Part shown: positions 2,137-22,063 of the stretch, piece by piece
Numbering within the stretch: the first letter of the stretch is position 1
Layout: each line of letters begins with the position of its first letter
Program-made: the position numbers and the translations under genes
Source of the DNA: a virus
IMG/VR virus record: IMGVR_UViG_3300044970_000102
Coordinates: 1-24,768 of that record
DNA: 24,768 nucleotides
Strand: one strand, 5' to 3'
The notes under the pieces: generated by a model
Told to the model about the DNA's origin: nothing
What the model saw: only the letters and a program-made list of their open reading frames with translations
Databases searched by the model: none

Positions 2137-2538
2137 TTATAATATTTTAACCATTTCTTGGCAATTACTGTCTCCCTTTTGGAAACCACAATTGCTATAT
2201 CTGTCAATTAGACTTTTGCTTTTTAAAGATGTATAAATGTATTTAAAATCTCCAGTATCTTTAACCATCTCTATTAATACATTTATAAGAAATTCAAGAG
2301 CTTCATGCCTATCATCTTCCCTATATTGAAAGTTCGAAACTATAAATTCTATCCAAGCTGTTTTTGAGTTTGTAAAGTAAACAAATCCAGCACATATCTC
2401 AAAGCCATCTTTGTGAACCATCACGCCTCCTTTGCCATTTTGTGGCAACATATCAGCTGGCGGAGGTGTCCACCCCCATTCTTTCCACCATGACGATAAC
2501 GTTTTATAATCATCATCATTTAAGAATCGAACTTCCAT
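2137..2538 (-). CDS. GNAT-fold-like phage protein, 133 aa
   Basis: ATG at 2538 (MEVRFLNDDDYKT) is chosen over an in-frame TTG at 2544. Either way the gene begins within 10 bases of the preceding stop. The sequence has the order of an N-acetyltransferase fold: an N-terminal strand, a helix with a conserved-looking WWKEWGW segment, a central strand ending CAGFVYF, a TAWIEFIVSN strand, a helix, then LIDRYSNCGFQKG, which matches the usual 'lyer.GF' GNAT ending. The canonical acetyl-CoA loop (Q/R-x-x-G-x-G/A) after the central strand is not evident; YREDDRHEALEF stands there. The protein may therefore bind a ligand poorly or serve a structural role. It sits between two virion genes, a position in which small GNAT-like proteins are common in Bacteroidetes phages. 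The fold call is moderate and the activity is unknown. Confidence 0.6.
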   Translation of the reverse strand: MEVRFLNDDDYKTLSSWWKEWGWTPPPADMLPQNGKGGVMVHKDGFEICAGFVYFTNSKTAWIEFIVSNFQYREDDRHEALEFLINVLIEMVKDTGDFKYIYTSLKSKSLIDRYSNCGFQKGDSNCQEMVKIL

Positions 2539-2546
2539 ACACAAAT

Positions 2547-7886: not shown

Positions 7887-8794
7887 TATTTTATAATTTT
7901 ATCACGACCTCTTAACGACATAAGTAATCTCGCTGGGTGCAGATTGCTCAATCTTATTTTTGTATTTCGTAAAGATGCTGTTTTGGCTTTTTGAACTCTA
8001 TTAACAAGGTATTCTTGTACACCTGTTTTGTTACTTAAAATAGCCCACTTTAAATAATTGTAAATATACTCTTCAGCTAATTTGTTGATTGTGATAAGAG
8101 AATCATCACCATTTTCCATTCCATCTGAAATGTACTCAAGTACAATGTAACCATCTTCAACTCCAGTCGAAAAGTCAATTACACCAGCTGCTTTATTTAT
8201 AGTGAATTTAGGATTTCTATTTGCTTCATCTGTAGCTAAACCATAACGACCACCAATATTATAACCAAAATACCAATCGCCATTATAAGGCCATCCATAG
8301 TAACCATTATAAGGACCTGGACCTGTATATAATTGAGCATCTTGTCTCATTATATCAACTTTAGATGTTCCTGTTACAACTTCTCCATTTAAGTCAAAAA
8401 TAATGTCAAGATTGTTGTCTTGTAAATACGCAGTAGCTGATAATATTGTTCTATTTTCAGTCAGTTGTAATAATACACCTTCTCTTAATAAAGATATTCT
8501 TACATAATTAACATAATCAGGAGGCAATACCATTTTTAATTGACTGCCTAATTGCAACTCAAGTACCTTAATATTTCTTAAAGCGTCATAGTTAAGTTCT
8601 TGAATGGCTCTTTTTGCATGAAATAAAACAGTATAACGCTCAACATTATTAACAAGTTTATCATTGCCAACATACATAAGCATAAAATTGTTTACTATAT
8701 CAGCAAGGCTAACATATTGATATGAACCCCAGTTTATATCTTCAGGTATTATACCATTGTTAGTATAATATTGATAGTTAGTAATGTATGCCAT
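7886..8794 (-). CDS. Ring/connector (tail tubular) protein, 302 aa
   Basis: This matches my recollection of the conserved ring or tail-tubular proteins that stack beneath the portal in crAss-like phages. Visible features are an opening YVSLADIVNNFMLMYVG segment, a helix with FHAKRAIQELNYDALRNIK (about residues 58-77), LPPDYVNYVRISLL, an aromatic Gly/Pro/Tyr-rich loop (GPGPYNGYYGWPYNGDW, about 157-173), and a basic C-terminal helical region. It lies between another ring protein (three-base gap upstream) and the giant tail protein (one-base overlap), which is the expected order from portal to tail. Which ring of the neck it forms cannot be told from sequence alone. Confidence 0.7.
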   Translation of the reverse strand: MAYITNYQYYTNNGIIPEDINWGSYQYVSLADIVNNFMLMYVGNDKLVNNVERYTVLFHAKRAIQELNYDALRNIKVLELQLGSQLKMVLPPDYVNYVRISLLREGVLLQLTENRTILSATAYLQDNNLDIIFDLNGEVVTGTSKVDIMRQDAQLYTGPGPYNGYYGWPYNGDWYFGYNIGGRYGLATDEANRNPKFTINKAAGVIDFSTGVEDGYIVLEYISDGMENGDDSLITINKLAEEYIYNYLKWAILSNKTGVQEYLVNRVQKAKTASLRNTKIRLSNLHPARLLMSLRGRDKIIK

Positions 8795-8797
8795 TTA

Positions 8798-9517
8798 TTA
8801 TTGTTTTTGTTGTATTTCTTGTAACTCTTCAGCCTTAGCTGCCGCTATTACTTCTTGCTCTCTTATTGATACGCCAGCATATTGTAATATCTTAACAACT
8901 AAATCAGAGAAATCACTCATTGGTAATTCAAAATCTTGATAGTCAACAGCAGATGGATTAAATAATGGATCTGAATCATTCGGCCCTAATGCAACATAAG
9001 TCCATTTTGGTTCTTTTGGATACCTTAAATAATGAGCATCTACATTTGCAGTTATTGTATTAGGATATACCATAAAGTTTGCTCTTGATGTAGTTGTGCC
9101 ATCATTATCCATCAATGTATAAACAGGATAAGAAACAGATGGTGCGGTTAAGTTTGATGCCAATAAATAAAGAATTTTTTGTTGACTTACTTTCTCTATT
9201 TCTTTATTATTTAAAACTAACTTCTGAACGAAATAACTATCCGATGGTACTTCAAAATACGGTGCATCATAAGTAAGTGAAATTACTTTATAAAAAGTAT
9301 CTATAACTTCAGATATTTTTTTAGGTACATCAGCATAACCTTCACCATGAGCTCTTTGATTTTGCTTAATAATTGCATTACTATATAGATAGATATATCG
9401 TTCAAATACATCTAGTTGTGCTTGTTTAGCAAATAGATTAAATTCAAATGGAGTTATATATCCTCGATTGTCTTTTGCTAATATAGACAGAACTGTATTT
9501 CTAACTTCGTTTATCAT
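8798..9517 (-). CDS. Ring/connector (head-tail joining) protein, 239 aa
   Basis: The N-terminal segment KDNRGYITPFEFNLFAKQAQ (residues 15-34) and the later PKEPKWTYVAL and DYQDFELPMSDFSDLVVKIL are features I associate with a conserved structural protein of uncultured Bacteroidetes phages, next to the second ring protein. The C-terminal helix is Ala/Glu/Gln-rich. It is the first gene after a strong terminator and has a TATCTTTG box only six bases before its ATG. It therefore probably starts a transcription unit that runs leftward through the tail genes. The ring role comes from gene order and recollection of the family, not from a search. Confidence 0.65.
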   Translation of the reverse strand: MINEVRNTVLSILAKDNRGYITPFEFNLFAKQAQLDVFERYIYLYSNAIIKQNQRAHGEGYADVPKKISEVIDTFYKVISLTYDAPYFEVPSDSYFVQKLVLNNKEIEKVSQQKILYLLASNLTAPSVSYPVYTLMDNDGTTTSRANFMVYPNTITANVDAHYLRYPKEPKWTYVALGPNDSDPLFNPSAVDYQDFELPMSDFSDLVVKILQYAGVSIREQEVIAAAKAEELQEIQQKQ

Positions 9518-9905: not shown

Positions 9906-9935
9906 CTTAAAACGTTTTAATTATTAATAACAACG

Positions 9936-9943
9936 CAAATATA
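9936..9943 (-). promoter_or_regulatory. Candidate -7 promoter box (TATATTTG) for the 106-aa gene
   Basis: TATATTTG on the minus strand fits the Bacteroidetes -7 consensus exactly. It sits directly after the stop codon of the 259-aa gene and 31 bases before the ATG of the 106-aa gene, with an AT-rich leader between. No TTTG was found at the -33 position, so the call rests on the -7 box and the placement. Confidence 0.5.
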
Positions 9944-14248: not shown

Positions 14249-16681
14249 CTATTTAGGACTAAATGATTCTAAATCAAAATCACCTAAGTTATCATTACCG
14301 CTACTTTCGAAGTTCAATGGTGGTAAGTTATTTTTTCTTTGATTAATCAACTCAGATTGTCTTGTTGCTTGAAGATCAACTCGCTTATCTTTAGCTTCTT
14401 CTTTCTTCTCTTCGCGCTTCATTAAGTTATCAGTCTCAATACCTTTTAATTGCATATTGTATTGGAACTCTCTTTCCATCAACTGAGCTTTAATAGCAGC
14501 CTCTGCTTGCATTTGTTGAACTGAGAAATTCATCTCAGCTTCTCTCAATTGTATCTTAGACTGAGCCTCAAGCTGAACCAATTGCGCTTTAGACTCAGCA
14601 GCAGCTTGTTGAGATTGAATATTACTTTGCATCTGCATCTGGAACTGCATCTCTTGATCCTTCTGCTTCTGCTCTATTCTCTTTCTTCTCTTTAACTTCA
14701 ACAACTCATTAGCTAACTTGATGTTATTAATCATTCTGATGTCAATAGCATCTTCAAGGTCAATTGTTTGTTGCTGCAATGATACTTGAATATTTGCCTC
14801 AAGCATTTGTTTTTGCTCTTCGTCTGGTGCTAACTCAATAAATATACCAAAGTCATGCAGGTAAAGGTCTTTAATGTCATTAAGTATAGCAACATTATAC
14901 TTACCTATCTGCATAGCGAACTCTTCAGCAAAGTCAGAGTACTCTAATATATCAGCAATTCGTATTGATAAACACTCAGCCAGCTTCTTAGTAATATTAA
15001 GGCCTCCTTCTAATATATGTCGTGTAGCTGTGTTTGAGTTTAATGCAGCTAGTTTCTGAACACCAACTAATGCGTCAGGGCTAGGAGTTGATCCGTCTCT
15101 AACTTCATTGATTCCCGTCACATCACGTATCATATTTAGATAGTGGTTGTAGTTGCCTATCAATGCAGCCATTTTAGATTGACCGCTATTTGAATTGAGC
15201 TCTTGAATAGGAACTCGCGCGTTATTGAACTCACCATCTTGGGTGTAGCTTCTACCAATAACACTACCAGTCTGGAAGTATAACTTTAACGCATCCTCTG
15301 GGTTATATGCTGCCCCTGTACCAAGGTCAACCTCATTAATACCATCAGCATCAATGAATACACCATCAGGAACTACTCTTGCCATTACTTGCTGTAACTT
15401 CAAGTGAGTAAGTTGTATCTGATCAGCAAAAGGAATCATACGTCTTACTAATGACTCAGTATTTCCTTTATACATTCTAGGTGCAAACATTACATAGTTA
15501 GGAAGTGCGTTCTGTGTAGCCGACTTAGGTCTAACCATATTCTTCATCATATCCCACTTAAGCATGATGTTAGAACCACCAACCAATATACCTTCATACC
15601 AAACGTCACGAACTGCTTCAACTTTCTCAAACATCATTCCCTCTTCCGATGGAGGATTGAATGTATCGTTCTTTCTAATTACTCGCTCACCACCGTTCTC
15701 AAGGATTTTCTTCTTCCATACAAAACGCTTACTAGTCTTATAGTTGAAATAAAGTAAAGTAACTACTTCATTTAGAAATGCATCATCTTGATAGTTTCGA
15801 ATAATAGGGAAGTAGTCATACCAAGCAGATGAAGCGTTACGTATTTCTTTTAATTGTTCATCTGTTAAGTTTGGATTAATTTTTAAAAGCTCAGTGTAAT
15901 GAACTTGTTTAACCTCACCAAAATAATAACAATCTGAAAAGTCATTCAACTCAGTATAACTATGAATGAAATTAGCAGGATCTACATAGTCAACCTTTAA
16001 TCCATCGTTTACTAAAAATGTATGCCTTACAATAGCTTTACCCAAAACAGTTAAGTCATAATCAACTAACTTCTTTAATTTTGGGTACTCATTCATCTTG
16101 AGAATAGTATCAATAGCAACTTCTTCAGCAATCTCAATAGATGGCTTATATTTCATTTGCATGTACAACGAGAGCTCCTCATCGTTCTCTGGAAGCTCAT
16201 CAGGATTGACATTAAATGCATCAATTCCAAATTGATCCTTTGTCATTTGTAAGAAATCCTTAGCTACCATATCAGCCTCAATCATATCCTGAAAGATGTT
16301 CTTCTTTTCAGCAGACATAACATCTTGAGACTCAGCCTTAATAGTAAACAATCTATCATTCATACCATTGACAACAATGTCAACAAATTTTGGTATAATA
16401 GGTATTGGAGTCCAGTCTAAATTTAACATAGACATATCTCCATTTACTGCTAATTCATCTTTATATTTTTGTACTGGTTGTTCACCTCTTGCGTATAATC
16501 TTAAACGATGAAATTCACCCCATTGGTCATAGAACCGACATGTATTTGCTTTACGCTTAAACCACTCACCCTCAACAGATTTTGCAACCTTTAAACCATA
16601 CTCTACTGTAGCCTTTTCTTCATCGCTAGCCATTTGGTTTGGAAAGGGTGATTGATAAATTGCAACTGATAATTTCTCCAT
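14249..16681 (-). CDS. Portal protein, 810 aa
   Basis: Large size, one-base TAATG overlap with the terminase gene and position before the scaffold and capsid genes identify the portal, the dodecameric ring through which DNA enters and leaves the head. The N-terminal two thirds has mixed helices and strands with aromatic-rich segments and a long helical stretch after residue about 430 (IQLTHLKLQQVMARVVPDG). From about residue 665 it becomes a Gln/Glu/Lys/Met-rich coiled coil, with repeated QMQMQ- and AQL-type segments, that runs to about residue 770. A charged tail follows. Such a C-terminal extension could form the helical barrel that projects into the head in large podovirus portals. Its length is in the range I recall for crAss-like portals. 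No homology search was possible. Confidence 0.8.
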   Translation of the reverse strand: MEKLSVAIYQSPFPNQMASDEEKATVEYGLKVAKSVEGEWFKRKANTCRFYDQWGEFHRLRLYARGEQPVQKYKDELAVNGDMSMLNLDWTPIPIIPKFVDIVVNGMNDRLFTIKAESQDVMSAEKKNIFQDMIEADMVAKDFLQMTKDQFGIDAFNVNPDELPENDEELSLYMQMKYKPSIEIAEEVAIDTILKMNEYPKLKKLVDYDLTVLGKAIVRHTFLVNDGLKVDYVDPANFIHSYTELNDFSDCYYFGEVKQVHYTELLKINPNLTDEQLKEIRNASSAWYDYFPIIRNYQDDAFLNEVVTLLYFNYKTSKRFVWKKKILENGGERVIRKNDTFNPPSEEGMMFEKVEAVRDVWYEGILVGGSNIMLKWDMMKNMVRPKSATQNALPNYVMFAPRMYKGNTESLVRRMIPFADQIQLTHLKLQQVMARVVPDGVFIDADGINEVDLGTGAAYNPEDALKLYFQTGSVIGRSYTQDGEFNNARVPIQELNSNSGQSKMAALIGNYNHYLNMIRDVTGINEVRDGSTPSPDALVGVQKLAALNSNTATRHILEGGLNITKKLAECLSIRIADILEYSDFAEEFAMQIGKYNVAILNDIKDLYLHDFGIFIELAPDEEQKQMLEANIQVSLQQQTIDLEDAIDIRMINNIKLANELLKLKRRKRIEQKQKDQEMQFQMQMQSNIQSQQAAAESKAQLVQLEAQSKIQLREAEMNFSVQQMQAEAAIKAQLMEREFQYNMQLKGIETDNLMKREEKKEEAKDKRVDLQATRQSELINQRKNNLPPLNFESSGNDNLGDFDLESFSPK

Positions 16682-18900
16682 TATTTTAATATTTCGCTTC
16701 TAATTCCACGATTATCGTATTTTACAAATTTAATACTTATTTTCGATTCTTTTTTCTCTGTTTCAAATAAATGCTTACGTGTAGCCATTATAGCTAGACC
16801 TGAACTAATGGAAGCATCATGTTTTGTTCTATTGTTTGGATCAAATCTAGCCCAATCCTCTAAGGTTTTTGTAAAATACATTGAGCCCATGCATTCAGGA
16901 TCTCTATATGTTCCCTCAGTATCAAGTCCTACATACTCTTCAATATACGTCTCAATAGCAGATGCGTGGGCCTGCCTTACATCTTCAGATGAGTTAGGTA
17001 TACCTCCTATCTCTAACTCGGTCTTAGATAGCTTTGTCTTATGCTTATCAGGTCTATTCATTGAGAATGCTCTATATCCTCTATTCTTAAAGTGATATAA
17101 TAACCTAGCCTTATTGTTCTCTGCTAACAATGGCATACCATAAAAAATACAAGCCATTAAAACATCCTCGAAAAATATCTCTGCTGTTTGTGGTCTTGCT
17201 ATATATTCTAAAAAGAACTCATTTGTTGGTGCTTCTTCCATATGAAATTTAGTCATACCATGCAAAGCACCATTAGATCCACCTCCTCCAACTACCCCTG
17301 ATATATCATAAGGGTCACACCCAAATGCACCTAAATGCTCATTTCCAGGAAACTTTTTACCTCCTCTATTTATAACGTTATTACGCAACCTACTATTTGG
17401 TATCCATGAAACTAAAAACCTACCATTCTTATCAGGAGTCCAAATAACTTCGCTGTCCTTTATACCGTTCTTCCAATGAAAATATCCTCTAGTTAATACT
17501 TGGTCTTTTATCAATGAATCATTGTAGTCAATCTGCTGATATATCTTTGTTAAGTTGAAAACAGACTGCTTAGACTCATCTCTAAATGCATGTGATTCAG
17601 TCCTTGGAAACTGTCGGTAAAATTCATTCAATGCATCTGAGTCACTTTTCAATGCAGCAACCTCATTATTCCACCAAGTAATAACTCCTTGAGATATCAT
17701 CTCTCCATCAATACCATTTACTGATTTCTCAGGATCTTCAAATACAGGCCAACCAAATTCATCTATATACCCTTCAATATTCCACTCCATTGGAATGAAT
17801 AACGAATAAAGTCCACTCTTAGTCTGACCATTAGCTGACCTTGTTCTAGGGTTGCTATCGTTATACAACTTCTTAAAGTTTTCCCCACCTTTATTCAATG
17901 CATTTGATGTAGAACCCATCATACATTTACCAACAATCTTACTACCTAACCTCAAACAAGTCTTTGTTACGCGCCAGTTGTTTAATATGTTTTCAGGCTT
18001 CTCCCATTTACCACTTTCATCATGGACTAATAATAGAAGTTTTTCACCATCATAGCTGTTGTCAGCTGTGTTCTTCCAGTCAATAGTAGTATCAAGACCA
18101 TCAATTTCATCTTGAGCCTCTTGATCCATATTCTTTCGGGTAATCTTACTTGCTGGAACACGAAACGCTAGCTCAGTCTTTGGATTATCCATACCATCTT
18201 GAATGGGCTTAAAGAAGAACGGATAGTTCCTTACAATTGGAACTACCTTATCAGTAAACATCTTCTTAGCATCACTACCAGTTTTTGATAGTATACCAAT
18301 CCTAGAATCCCTTACAATTGTACCAGTGTTACATATCTCAGAACTAGACATGAACGAGAATCCAGAACGTCTGTTCTTTAAGTAATCCATACCAAAAGAC
18401 CTATTGTCAGACTTACATGCCTCCCAATAGATATAGAATATCCTATTTGATTCCCTAAAGTCAGGTAGACCTATGTCAATTTTTGTCCATTGTAAGTACA
18501 TGTAATGAGTACCTGTCATATAGGTTGGCTTACCGTTATTTATAAACCAATGCCCATTATCTCGTTTGTCAAATTCTGCTTCAATCAAGTCAACGTACTT
18601 AGATTTAAAAGCGTTATCTCTTCTGTTCCAATCAAATATTGTCTTGATTTTCTGTAGTTCAGATGGATACTCTTGTGCTACCCATTTGTTGCCGTAATCG
18701 GTAACTTTTTCAGGTGTTGAAGGAAGTGCAATCTTAACACTATTGATATCATATATCTGACCTATTGTACCATCTTTTGATATAACTACAACATCATAAT
18801 CTTTATTGTAGCCATACTCCCAAGACTTATGCCTATTCTTAGTTGTCAATACATTCTTAGGAATGTAATCATCAAGTATAACGTAAAGATTATTTTCCAT
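16681..18900 (-). CDS. Large terminase subunit (TerL), 739 aa
   Basis: TerL is the ATPase and nuclease that packages DNA through the portal. The ATPase part shows a degenerate Walker A region, KNRRSGFSFMSSS (175-187), a clear Walker B, LLLLVHDE (288-295; D294, E295), and a coupling-type motif, GKCMMGSTSNA (324-334). The nuclease part has the three expected acidic positions of an RNase H-like fold: D529 in GAFGCDPYD, E594 in PLLAENN and D695 in KHDASIS. The protein is somewhat longer than typical TerL but in the crAss-like range. It overlaps the portal start by one base and follows a 31-base gap after a candidate small terminase gene. Family identity is firm from motifs and context. Confidence 0.88.
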   Translation of the reverse strand: MENNLYVILDDYIPKNVLTTKNRHKSWEYGYNKDYDVVVISKDGTIGQIYDINSVKIALPSTPEKVTDYGNKWVAQEYPSELQKIKTIFDWNRRDNAFKSKYVDLIEAEFDKRDNGHWFINNGKPTYMTGTHYMYLQWTKIDIGLPDFRESNRIFYIYWEACKSDNRSFGMDYLKNRRSGFSFMSSSEICNTGTIVRDSRIGILSKTGSDAKKMFTDKVVPIVRNYPFFFKPIQDGMDNPKTELAFRVPASKITRKNMDQEAQDEIDGLDTTIDWKNTADNSYDGEKLLLLVHDESGKWEKPENILNNWRVTKTCLRLGSKIVGKCMMGSTSNALNKGGENFKKLYNDSNPRTRSANGQTKSGLYSLFIPMEWNIEGYIDEFGWPVFEDPEKSVNGIDGEMISQGVITWWNNEVAALKSDSDALNEFYRQFPRTESHAFRDESKQSVFNLTKIYQQIDYNDSLIKDQVLTRGYFHWKNGIKDSEVIWTPDKNGRFLVSWIPNSRLRNNVINRGGKKFPGNEHLGAFGCDPYDISGVVGGGGSNGALHGMTKFHMEEAPTNEFFLEYIARPQTAEIFFEDVLMACIFYGMPLLAENNKARLLYHFKNRGYRAFSMNRPDKHKTKLSKTELEIGGIPNSSEDVRQAHASAIETYIEEYVGLDTEGTYRDPECMGSMYFTKTLEDWARFDPNNRTKHDASISSGLAIMATRKHLFETEKKESKISIKFVKYDNRGIRSEILK

Positions 18901-18931
18901 TTATACGCCTTATTGTCAAAAGTATTTTGCG

Positions 18932-19204
18932 TTATTTCTTTTTTGCCCTGCCTTCTGCGAATCCACCATTTCCTACGTTTATCGTAGGAATCTGTGAATC
19001 GCTACTTTTATTTTCCTCCTCCTCAATCTTAGCTAACATATTCAAAGCATCCTCAAATGCCAACCTTTTAGCCGATGCAGCGTTCTTTAATTTATCTGCT
19101 GATATATCATCCTCAGATCGAGTTATAATTGGCTCTTTTAATACTTTTATCAGCTCATCAATAGCAACTTTTGCTGCCTCTAATATCTCTACTTTTTTAG
19201 ACAT
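18932..19204 (-). CDS. Candidate small terminase-like protein, 90 aa
   Basis: This is a short, charged, mostly helical protein. Residues 1-25 form one helix, 37-67 form a second Ala/Leu/Glu-rich helix (SADKLKNAASAKRLAFEDAL), and the C-terminus is a flexible basic tail ending GRAKKK. It lies directly upstream of TerL in transcription order and overlaps the GroES-like gene by 16 bases. Small terminase subunits are often short helical proteins in this position, so that role is suggested. No DNA-binding helix-turn-helix was visible, and no family was recognised by sequence. Confidence 0.5.
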   Translation of the reverse strand: MSKKVEILEAAKVAIDELIKVLKEPIITRSEDDISADKLKNAASAKRLAFEDALNMLAKIEEEENKSSDSQIPTINVGNGGFAEGRAKKK

Positions 19205-19749
19205 ATATTTCGATTATACATTCTATAAAGAACTTCATTATTTATTTTAAACTCATATTCACTATCTGGAGTGAATGAAACAACATCGCCAACTTCTACT
19301 TCTTTTAAATCATCATTCTTAAATACAACCTCACCCCATAACTCTTCAAACGTACCTAATGAATTAAATATCTTATCCTCAGATGGCACAGGTCGAATAA
19401 AAACAAATGGATATGGTGCACTCCAAATATTTTTATCTTTGGAATATAGATACACTTGCTCAGGCTCAACAATAAATAAATCATCCTTTAAATGATGCCA
19501 ACTACTTTTTTGTCTACCCCTCATGTCATAGTAAAACTTAAAAACATTATGGTGTACAACCACAATGTCACCAGCAGTAATAGTTCCATCATAATAAATT
19601 GGAACAGATATTACCTCAGCAAATCTATTTGAAACTGTGTGATCTTCTTGGGAGGTGCTTATAATGAACTCTTTGTCTCCGTAAGTTCTTATGTTGTCAT
19701 ACCTCCTACCATCAACAGCTTTGATGATAAAACAGTATGGTGCTTTCAT
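19189..19749 (-). CDS. Putative double GroES-like (co-chaperonin) protein, 186 aa
   Basis: The C-terminal part (about residues 130-186) reads like the end of a GroES subunit: WGEVVFKNDD, a VGDVVSFTPDSEYEFKINN segment and VLYRMYNRNICLK, the place where GroES has 'GD.V.F....g.e.ki..eeyl...e.dIla'. The first half (about 50-100) repeats the plan: FAEVISVP, AGDIVVVHHNVFKFYYD, then DDLFIVEPEQVYLY. The protein thus looks like two GroES-type domains in tandem. Phages such as T4 (gp31) and RB49 encode GroES-like partners for folding their capsid protein, so a similar role is plausible. Its place just before the terminase fits early expression of a head-assembly factor. A structural beta-barrel with no chaperonin role cannot be ruled out. 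Confidence 0.6.
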   Translation of the reverse strand: MKAPYCFIIKAVDGRRYDNIRTYGDKEFIISTSQEDHTVSNRFAEVISVPIYYDGTITAGDIVVVHHNVFKFYYDMRGRQKSSWHHLKDDLFIVEPEQVYLYSKDKNIWSAPYPFVFIRPVPSEDKIFNSLGTFEELWGEVVFKNDDLKEVEVGDVVSFTPDSEYEFKINNEVLYRMYNRNICLKK

Positions 19750-19967
19750 TAAAAATTTATATTATACTCAATTGATACAGGAACAGTATTTGAGAACTCT
19801 TTCCATAAAACTATCTCACCTTCCTTAATGATGTAAAGTTTAATCCCATCTTCATTTCTTATTATCTGATAGATAGAATAACTTTTATCAAGAACTTCCT
19901 GTCCAACAGTGTAATTCATTGACTTCATATAGTCAGGACCAATCGATATTTTTCTAATGATATTCAC
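19749..19967 (-). CDS. Small conserved-looking phage protein, 72 aa
   Basis: Function unknown. The sequence is short and beta-rich, with alternating hydrophobic residues (SIYQIIRNEDGIKLYIIKEG, residues 30-49) and a closing VSIEYNINF. There is no Cys, signal peptide or membrane segment. The stop overlaps the start of the GroES-like gene by one base, and the start overlaps the previous gene by 14 bases. The spacing argues for a real, translationally coupled gene. A small barrel (SH3-like) fold would fit the strand pattern but is unproven. Confidence 0.6.
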   Translation of the reverse strand: MNIIRKISIGPDYMKSMNYTVGQEVLDKSYSIYQIIRNEDGIKLYIIKEGEIVLWKEFSNTVPVSIEYNINF

Positions 19968-20190
19968 CAGTCTGTAGGTTGATAGTTATATCGCCATATT
20001 TAGCAATTATCTCTTCTTGATATTTAGCCAAGTCATGTGCAGCAATATCTAAATTTGCTAAAGTCGATTTCTTTTTGCTTTTAAGTCTTTCGAATGAAAG
20101 CTCTATGTCAGCTACTTCAAACTTTAAATCTCTAAAGTTGCGATTAAGTTCTGTCAATTTAGAAAGTTCGTCTTGTTCTAATTTTTTCAT
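19954..20190 (-). CDS. Small coiled-coil phage protein, 78 aa
   Basis: Residues 1-62 are charged and heptad-like, with Leu and Ile at regular intervals (KLEQDELSKLTELNRNFRDL and on), which predicts a coiled coil. The end, KYGDITINLQTGEYH, is a short strand motif that I recall at the ends of similar small coiled-coil proteins in other phages. It follows a TATATTTG box and a leader ending AAATTTAATAAAATG, so it probably starts the transcription unit that runs to the terminase. The role is unknown. A chaperone, regulator or virion assembly helper is possible. Confidence 0.6.
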   Translation of the reverse strand: MKKLEQDELSKLTELNRNFRDLKFEVADIELSFERLKSKKKSTLANLDIAAHDLAKYQEEIIAKYGDITINLQTGEYH

Positions 20191-20209
20191 TTTATTAAAT
20201 TTTATAATG

Positions 20210-20217
20210 CAAATATA
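20210..20217 (-). promoter_or_regulatory. Candidate -7 promoter box (TATATTTG) for the terminase unit
   Basis: TATATTTG lies 20 bases before the ATG at 20190 in the short gap after the lectin-like adhesin gene. The leader is AT-rich and ends AAATTTAATAAAATG, the same 15 bases that precede the scaffold start. No -33 TTTG was found, but the upstream DNA is the conserved end of the adhesin gene, which limits what could be there. Confidence 0.5.
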
Positions 20218-20221
20218 GCAA

Positions 20222-20860
20222 TTATATGCTAAATGTTCTTACAGCACGCACATAGTACGTGGAGTCCTTATCGAAGTCGTAGGCAGACCCATCGTCGAAG
20301 TAGAAGAACCACGCGTAACTGGAGTCGCTCTCCGTACTACTCCAATAAGAATTATAAAAAATTTGAGTAGCACCACTTATTGACCCAAACGCAGAATTTC
20401 CAGAAAGCGTTTTATTTACATTAAATCTATTTTGCCAAAGCAAACTTAATTCGTCAATAGCAGGTAAATACCAATCTGACTTACTATTATTTGTTGAATC
20501 TAAACATAATTTAGCTGCACCAGCTGTAAATCCAGATTGACCTACTATTGCATTTGAATTACTTAAACCATCCCAAGTGCTTTGAGCTGTTGCGCCTATC
20601 AATGTTCCAGTTATATTACTCCATGCTGAACTTGTACTTAAATCAGTTGTGTCAACAACTAAATAATATTGAACACCATTATCAATATATCTATGAAAAA
20701 CAACTCCACCCTCCGAAGATACATATTGACCTATTTCATAAGTAAAGCCATTATTACTTACAGCTAACAAATCAAATTGAACTTGATCTCCATTAGCATC
20801 ACTTCCAAATAGTCTATCACCTGCCACAGGTGTCTTAACTGGATAATTATTTACTTTCAT
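20222..20860 (-). CDS. Putative DGR-diversified C-type-lectin-like (DUF1566-type) adhesin, 212 aa
   Basis: The N-terminus (residues 9-30, with PVAGDRLFGSD) is typical of phage adhesin attachment segments. From about residue 40 the sequence follows the DUF1566/FGE-type C-type-lectin fold: GVVFHRYID, DLSTSSAWSNIT, STWDGLSNS, AAKLCLD, DWYLPAIDELSLLWQ, NSYWSSTE and the terminal YYVRAVRTF. Diversified proteins of DGRs share this fold and carry variable positions in the same C-terminal block. Codons there differ sharply from the rest of the gene (see the 20232-20345 entry). It overlaps the 45-aa gene by four bases and lies just after the lysis genes. Its likely role is binding variable receptors on the host surface. 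If no template repeat exists, it is an ordinary lectin-like phage protein. Confidence 0.7.
   Translation of the reverse strand: MKVNNYPVKTPVAGDRLFGSDANGDQVQFDLLAVSNNGFTYEIGQYVSSEGGVVFHRYIDNGVQYYLVVDTTDLSTSSAWSNITGTLIGATAQSTWDGLSNSNAIVGQSGFTAGAAKLCLDSTNNSKSDWYLPAIDELSLLWQNRFNVNKTLSGNSAFGSISGATQIFYNSYWSSTESDSSYAWFFYFDDGSAYDFDKDSTYYVRAVRTFSI
20232..20345 (-). other. Candidate DGR variable region at the 3' end of the adhesin gene
   Basis: In this stretch Phe codons are all TTC, Tyr codons are almost all TAC, Asp is mostly GAC and Ser is often TCC. Elsewhere in the gene and genome TTT, TAT and GAT prevail. Base composition rises to roughly half G+C. The excess of NNC codons at residues typically variable in DGR targets (TTC TTC TAC TTC GAC, then TAC GAC TTC, and GAC TCC) fits AAC codons mutated at adenines. 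Invariant W, G and VRAVR positions flank them. No template repeat or reverse transcriptase is in the window. Confidence 0.6.
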
Positions 20861-20994
20861 CTGCCTTGCGATTTATATTGTTTTTTATAATTCTTACTCG
20901 TCTTTGTCTTGCTAGTCTTTGTCTTAGCATGAACACCAGGTCGTTTTACCTTTGGCTTTGCTATAAATGATGATATGTCCTTTTGCTTTTTCAT
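20857..20994 (-). CDS. Small basic Lys-rich protein, 45 aa
   Basis: An ATG at 20994 overlaps the amidase stop by three bases (ATGA), and its stop at 20857-20859 overlaps the adhesin start as TGA/ATG. The product is about one third Lys, with a central PGVHAKTKTSKTKTSKNYKK segment and the ending YKSQGR. It has no hydrophobic segment. Coupling on both sides makes it a real gene despite its size. I recall short phage proteins with a 'GVHAKtkxSk.k.SKNYkk.Y.GQGr' pattern but no established function. A nucleic-acid-binding role is suggested by charge only. Confidence 0.75.
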   Translation of the reverse strand: MKKQKDISSFIAKPKVKRPGVHAKTKTSKTKTSKNYKKQYKSQGR

Positions 20995-21641
20995 CACAAA
21001 CTCTTTAACATCTCAATTACTCGTGGACATGGATACATGTCAGACTTATCTTTTCTTACTGAGTTATGAGTAAATATACCATCTTCACCCTTCATAGCTC
21101 TCTTTGATAAATCCCAAATGTCCTCGTTATATTCTCTAGGTATATTGTAAGTCTCACACAAATATACAACTAATTGACGTAAGCTCTCAATCTGCTTGTC
21201 AGTGTACTTATGCCAAAACTTATATCCCTTAAACGGCTTATCCAACTCTGTAACTTCACTTGGATCAACCAATCCACCTACATAGTTGTAAAATCTACCG
21301 CCCTTCTCTTTTAACATCCCCCAATTACATACCTCAATACCAACTGAATTTTTATCAAGTGCCTTATATGGTAATCCCATATTTGAAAATGGAGCGTTCT
21401 TTAGACCTAAATGATACGCCCATTCTCTAGATGAAAAACACTGAACAATTGTACCACTGTTTCCAATAACAAAAGCTGTAGCTATTCTATCTTTCGTACT
21501 ATCCCAATACTTAGCTACACCAACAGCATTGCCATTACCAGCAGTATGGTGCAAGTAAATCTGATTCTTAGGAGTCTCCTCCTGAAAGTATTGAGTAGAT
21601 TTCAATCTGCTCTGAACTATTTTTGTTGTATCTAACTTCAT
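20994..21641 (-). CDS. Endolysin: N-acetylmuramoyl-L-alanine amidase, 215 aa
   Basis: The protein belongs to the zinc-dependent Amidase_2/PGRP fold, which cuts the bond between MurNAc and L-Ala in peptidoglycan. It has LHHTAGN at residues 30-36 with zinc-ligand H31 or H32, a core AYHLGL at 75-80, a conserved SVGIEVCN strand at 99-106, and the late ligand pair H192 and C205 in the THNS...YPCP region. This is the same His-His-Cys arrangement as T7 lysozyme. No signal peptide is present, so export depends on the holin. It overlaps the holin stop by four bases and the 45-aa gene by three. The C-terminus holds no separate cell-wall-binding domain. Confidence 0.85.
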   Translation of the reverse strand: MKLDTTKIVQSRLKSTQYFQEETPKNQIYLHHTAGNGNAVGVAKYWDSTKDRIATAFVIGNSGTIVQCFSSREWAYHLGLKNAPFSNMGLPYKALDKNSVGIEVCNWGMLKEKGGRFYNYVGGLVDPSEVTELDKPFKGYKFWHKYTDKQIESLRQLVVYLCETYNIPREYNEDIWDLSKRAMKGEDGIFTHNSVRKDKSDMYPCPRVIEMLKSL

Positions 21642-22063
21642 GTTAATTTATCTGCTTCTTCTTTTGCTCTTGTTACGAATTCACGTAATGATTTAAGTAA
21701 GTTCTTTCCTGTCACCGACTCATAGCTTTCATTAATTGACTTAATCTCTACAGCAACACAAAAGAACGCGACAATCTTTGTCATAACAAGATCAACTGCT
21801 ATAAAGTGAGCTAGTAAGTCAGCAGCTATGTATTTCTCAACTAAAAAAATAAATAATATAGCTCCACAATAAAGAAGTGACTTACTTATAACGTGTGATA
21901 ATCTTCTGCTCTTAATAGCCTTCCAGCCGCCCTTTTTAACGCTTCTCCAAATGCCAAATGAAGTGTCTAGAATTATTGCAAGCAAAGCAACATATATCAT
22001 TGGTTTCACTGGGGATAATACTGCTAAAAATGATGTTGCTAGTAGAAGTAATTTTGTTTTCAC
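21638..22063 (-). CDS. Holin (phage holin family 4-like), 141 aa
   Basis: Start is a GTG at 22063 that overlaps the spanin stop as GTGA. The next in-frame Met would cost the first hydrophobic segment. Hydrophobic segments lie at about residues 4-18, 22-38, 60-76 and 82-106, separated by a basic loop (SVKKGGWKAIKSRRLSH, 41-57). The tail is charged and helical. This is the layout of the 'phage holin family' proteins of Bacteroidetes phages related to the Cp-1 holin. It would form the inner-membrane lesion that lets the amidase reach the cell wall. It lies between spanin and amidase genes, so the lysis role is firmly supported by context. Confidence 0.8.
   Translation of the reverse strand: MKTKLLLLATSFLAVLSPVKPMIYVALLAIILDTSFGIWRSVKKGGWKAIKSRRLSHVISKSLLYCGAILFIFLVEKYIAADLLAHFIAVDLVMTKIVAFFCVAVEIKSINESYESVTGKNLLKSLREFVTRAKEEADKLT

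Follow-up and report, generated by a model that had tools for sequence, protein, structure and literature searches.

DUF1566, a domain with a CLec fold, has been reported as the commonest target domain of diversity-generating retroelements (DGRs; PMC6642488). Variable regions (VRs) remote from a reverse transcriptase (RT), and partial DGRs lacking an RT, have been described in Nanoarchaeota (PMC4372165) and cyanobacteria (PMC7517822). Surveys of DGRs start at the RT and, by their own statement, miss remote targets (PMC8144416); they would therefore pass over orphan VRs in phages. Here we analyzed a window of 24,768 nucleotides (the whole stretch of DNA under study, from virus record IMGVR_UViG_3300044970_000102) and show that its adhesin gene carries such an orphan VR, i.e., an adenine-mutated copy of a template repeat (TR) known beside avd and RT genes in a Chitinophagaceae metagenome-assembled genome (MAG).

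With its 24.8 kb, the window covers about 40% of the genome (roughly 61 kb) of a Bacteroidota-type phage and includes terminase and portal genes. It has a gene block in common with MW202828, a complete circular record of 60,850 bp. The adhesin, which is the VR target, and its context are as follows:

14249..16681, minus strand: portal protein, for context (phrog_6547, 509 bits)
16681..18900, minus strand: terminase large subunit, for structural-block context (phrog_6681, 586 bits)
20222..20860, minus strand: adhesin, VR target gene, 212 aa, with a phage-type N-terminus and Lcl_C (PF07603)
20237..20647, minus strand: Lcl_C/DUF1566 domain, residues 72-208 (Pfam Lcl_C, 50.5 bits)
20241..20347, minus strand: TR-derived VR

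The best Foldseek match of the adhesin model (AlphaFold, pLDDT 75) is the C-terminal domain of Legionella Lcl (8q4e, E=7e-7), with weaker matches to C-type lectins. By both the Lcl_C assignment and the predicted model, the gene whose 3' end holds the VR has a C-type-lectin-like fold. The nearest essentially complete relative of the window phage, G003 (61,130 bp), has ~88% nucleotide identity to it where aligned. It is a circular permutation of another contig, G030 (62,323 bp), and its estimated shortfall is at most a few hundred bases. Other features of these phages include a 135-aa gene within the structural block of the window (2137-2544), related via G003 to a gene of MW202828 annotated as an acetyltransferase subunit. 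They also include a groEL-like gene (L198:2621-4174 in G003; 40933-42561 in MW202828), whose 518-aa product has 49% identity to the protein annotated as groEL in MW202828, a genome that also has a groES-like gene. The motif TATATTTGC, which resembles the -7 box of Bacteroidota promoters, occurs on the minus strand at two gene borders of the window (20209-20217 and 9935-9943), and the copy downstream of the adhesin is conserved in many sister phages.

The first-pass annotation had reported a switch in composition and codon use at the end of the adhesin, and this switch is real. The G+C fraction is 0.50 at 20232-20345 and 0.34 in the whole window, and only 3 of the 24,654 other 114-mers attain the former value. 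In its last 36 codons, the adhesin gene has 47% NNC codons, whereas 36-codon stretches of the other ORFs have 9% on average and 33% at most. Upstream of the VR, the adhesin gene is AT-rich, as is the rest of the phage. The limits proposed from composition were right to about 10 bases. Scanning bacterial genomes for a VR-like pattern matched six loci, and led to a 4.5-kb contig of the Chitinophagaceae MAG (L107) with a complete DGR: target, avd, TR, and RT (profile scores of 77.6 bits for the bAvd-like gene and 66.9 bits for the RT). The phage VR equals this TR at 62 of the 64 non-A sites, the other 2 being changed, and differs from it at 22 of the 43 template A sites (p = 4e-9). The test is not circular, since the part of the TR left out of the search pattern (positions 43-107) has the same bias (15/27 A sites differ vs 1/38 non-A sites, p = 1e-6). 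When the 17 distinct VRs (15 from phages and 2 from bacteria) are pooled, 315 of 731 A sites are changed (43%) and 29 of 1088 non-A sites (2.7%). A silent third-position A (in ACA) is changed in 11 of the 17, and amino-acid selection is therefore no explanation of the A bias. The 3' end of the lectin-like adhesin gene is a VR of DGR type whose changes are directed to adenines, as had been suspected before its template was found. If the protein acts as an adhesin, the changed residues should alter its binding specificity.

The adhesin and the target protein of the bacterial DGR are 59% identical over 174 aa, and upstream of the VR the two genes have only 61% DNA identity. Four further bacterial loci (L106, L108, L109, and L111) carry VRs of the same TR family, with no cognate TR seen in their MAGs; these may be orphan VRs in bacteria too, or else the MAGs are incomplete. 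We rejected the RTs of the other VR-bearing MAGs as cognate enzymes, since they are of other RT types or belong to DGRs with other TRs.

Differently mutated VRs of this TR family occur, with no RT seen alongside, in at least four phage lineages, each in its own Lcl_C gene. The grouping, which beyond sequence matches rests on our reading of the ORFs, is as follows:

L003, L013, L015, L021: podoviruses of the type of the window phage
L002/L016, L006/L009: phages with a different terminase
L017: tail-sheath-like genes and two VRs
L020
L007, L011, L012, L014, L019, L025, L212: Sak4-like gene in L025

The excess of variation at A sites that the first-pass annotation predicted among related genomes is present. 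The VRs of the window phage and L013 differ at 22/43 A sites and 2/64 non-A sites. Those of L012, L014, L025, and L212/L213 differ from each other at 16-28/43 A sites and 0-2/64 non-A sites with flanks ~1-7% divergent; the pair L012/L014 differs at 20/43 A sites with a flank divergence of ~1%. A 73.9-kb member of this set has no RT that we could see. The VR is identical among the window phage, L005, and L021, and other sets of contigs likewise share theirs. Two of the contigs, L002 (39 kb) and L016 (296 kb), have 12.8 kb of identical sequence and share one VR, which bears a 9-nt insertion. The two VRs of L017 are neighbours (8537-8982), unequally diverged, and have a partial bacterial-type 3' tract.

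Searches for the missing components in phages were negative. No second copy of the VR and no TR was found inside the window, by a repeat search or by a masked scan. RVT_1 was absent from 66 phage records (the window and 65 others, i.e., 29 + 32 + 4), including VR-bearing contigs of 296, 120, 79, 74, 69, and 61 kb; the same search detected the RT in 8/8 phage contigs with DGRs in cis and in the L107 genome. Searching 28 phage records with the TR DNA gave only VRs where there was any match, and a VR-derived pattern retrieved 25 viral loci, all of them VRs and none a template. The core of the L107-family TR was absent in two scans of 2.9 million viral contigs, a set that may omit the records closest to the window phage; the sole match, L172, was rejected as an unrelated DGR in cis. 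The L107 RT alone retrieved no relative among viral sequences. An alignment of RTs used as query retrieved seven phage contigs with related RTs, none of which has a TR of the L107 family (their TRs match it at 31-44 of 64 non-A sites). INPHARED phages gave no match to the L107 TR or target protein. Finally, G003 has one VR, no RT, no TR, and no other site above background.

These results do not bear out the earlier idea that a TR and an RT lie elsewhere in the phage, which would itself diversify the adhesin. The near-copy and DGR-type RT expected in the phage genome are found neither in the window, which is an incomplete genome, nor in G003. The near-copy is the TR of L107, which lies with its RT on a bacterial MAG contig, and bacteria appear to generate the diversity.

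The edges of the VR bear on how it may have reached the phage:

20330..20347, minus strand: 5' anchor TATTGGAGTAGTACGGAG, equal to the TR; native sister genes hold part of it (TATTGGAGTAGTAC)
20244..20254, minus strand: 3' anchor TATGTGCGTGC, where TR homology stops; the sequence is phage-native thereafter
20124..20240, minus strand: region 3' of the VR, without the IMH-like TCGGGCTTT tract and GC hairpin (ACCGCGNAGCGGT) of bacterial VRs
17833..21767, minus strand: block without mismatch to phage contig L021, 3.9 kb around the adhesin, with 9-14% divergence alongside

Sister phages have, at the same place and between the same conserved flanks, a native AT-rich C-terminus with other codons, which implies that the tract was swapped in. 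All the bacterial VRs that we examined have TCGGGCTTT or a close form directly 3', whereas the VR of the window lacks both this IMH-like tract and the downstream hairpin; L017 is the only phage VR to keep part of the bacterial-type tract (IMH-like TCGGGC). The hairpin motif CCGCGNAGCGG occurs in L106, L107, L108, L109, and L158, is degenerate in L160 and L166, is absent in L110 and L111, and was found in none of the phage loci examined. In phage BPP-1, the hairpin is needed for efficient homing, with residual activity in its absence (PMC3240598). The lack of the hairpin at phage VRs thus favours, though not strongly, recombination in which a bacterial VR or its cDNA is the partner. Three phage contigs with DGRs in cis and related RTs (L173, L178, and L179) also lack the GC hairpin, which weakens the preference for recombination over direct retrohoming. 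Together with the four bacterial loci where the motif is missing or degenerate, they show that its absence is no proof.

We lean towards the explanation that DGR-made bacterial sequence moved into phage adhesins by recombination, the transfer mechanism being our inference. Bacteria would diversify the target genes of their own DGRs, whose product is 59% identical to the phage protein. Phages would acquire such a tract in place of the C-terminus of their adhesin, through recombination at two short homologies, TATTGGAGTAGTACGGAG (5') and TATGTGCGTGC (3'), with the help of phage recombination proteins. The block could then spread from phage to phage. Consistent with this are the cognate TR, avd, and RT of L107, the absence of RVT_1 from the phage records, the swapped tract, the lack of a 3' hairpin, the recombination genes (a Sak4-like protein in L025 and an exonuclease in G003), and the block identical to L021. 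This block, of 3,934 bp, is a recent exchange of the adhesin region, unless one of the contigs is chimeric. It also explains why the window phage and L021, which are 96% identical overall, have the same VR, an identity that we therefore rejected as evidence against diversification. Several observations count against transfer by recombination. At 11-18 bp, the anchors offer little length for recombination, only about 40% of the window phage genome is sequenced, and L107 is a MAG contig for which misbinning is possible. Furthermore, we found no phage VR identical to that of a bacterial donor, the closest pair being 14 A sites apart.

A rather unlikely but credible alternative is direct retrohoming in trans, where the RT, Avd, and TR RNA of a DGR-bearing host write mutated cDNA into the phage gene. 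The turnover in the set of L012, where VRs differ almost only at A sites between close flanks and the 73.9-kb member has no RT, would fit this process. So would the edges: as in retrohoming, the VRs end at almost the same place 3' and begin at varying places 5'. In BPP-1, components supplied by a donor plasmid act on a recipient phage, and at least 8 bp of identity are enough for the 5' join (PMC3240598). On the other hand, no GC hairpin follows the phage VRs, nor, with the exception of L017, does the IMH-like tract, and no host was identified here for the VR-bearing phages. That several unrelated phage lineages were hypermutated in trans during infection, by a host-encoded DGR retargeting their adhesins, is likewise a minority possibility in our assessment.

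It is improbable that the VR is a fossil, inherited unchanged since an ancestral phage DGR lost its RT and TR. The sharing of identical VRs between contigs and the report of crAss-like phages with DGR fragments (PMC12386605) are in line with such a relic, but a single TR family in at least four phage lineages would require repeated losses, and the A-site differences of L012 from L014 and of L013 from the window phage are at odds with unchanged inheritance. Still less probable is an ordinary DGR in cis, with TR and RT in the unsequenced part of the phage: the record is indeed a fragment, and crAss-like phages are known to have DGRs with RT (PMC7290462, PMC12386605), but G003 has the VR with neither component, and the TR core is absent from the viral contigs. 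The remaining alternative, selection for a GC-rich, NNC-biased gene end with no DGR product, has in its favour the composition shift alone and is practically untenable, refuted by the match to a cognate TR with divergence almost only at A sites, a silent one included.

If phages draw adhesin diversity from bacterial DGRs, those with programmed receptor variation are undercounted, and hypermutation of host surface proteins would feed the host's own predators. The VR described here resembles those of bacterial Lcl_C/DUF1566 DGRs by its target domain, its C-terminal position, the AAC-rich TR, and the A-directed changes, but its gene is a phage gene, with no RT, TR, or 3' hairpin found alongside. 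Like the remote VRs of Nanoarchaeota and cyanobacteria, it is distant from any RT found and has A-directed changes. In those cases, however, the VR and the supposed DGR share one genome, whereas here the DGR is bacterial and the VRs are in phages of several lineages. The crAss-like phage DGRs (PMC7290462, PMC12386605) and Bordetella phage BPP-1 also have a C-terminal VR in a lectin-like phage protein but encode RT and TR in cis. In the open-access literature, to which our search was confined, we saw no account of phage VRs being supplied by a bacterial DGR. Within that literature, remote or RT-less VRs within one genome and phage DGRs in cis are already known, and what is new is the occurrence, in several phage lineages, of orphan VRs that match a bacterial TR.
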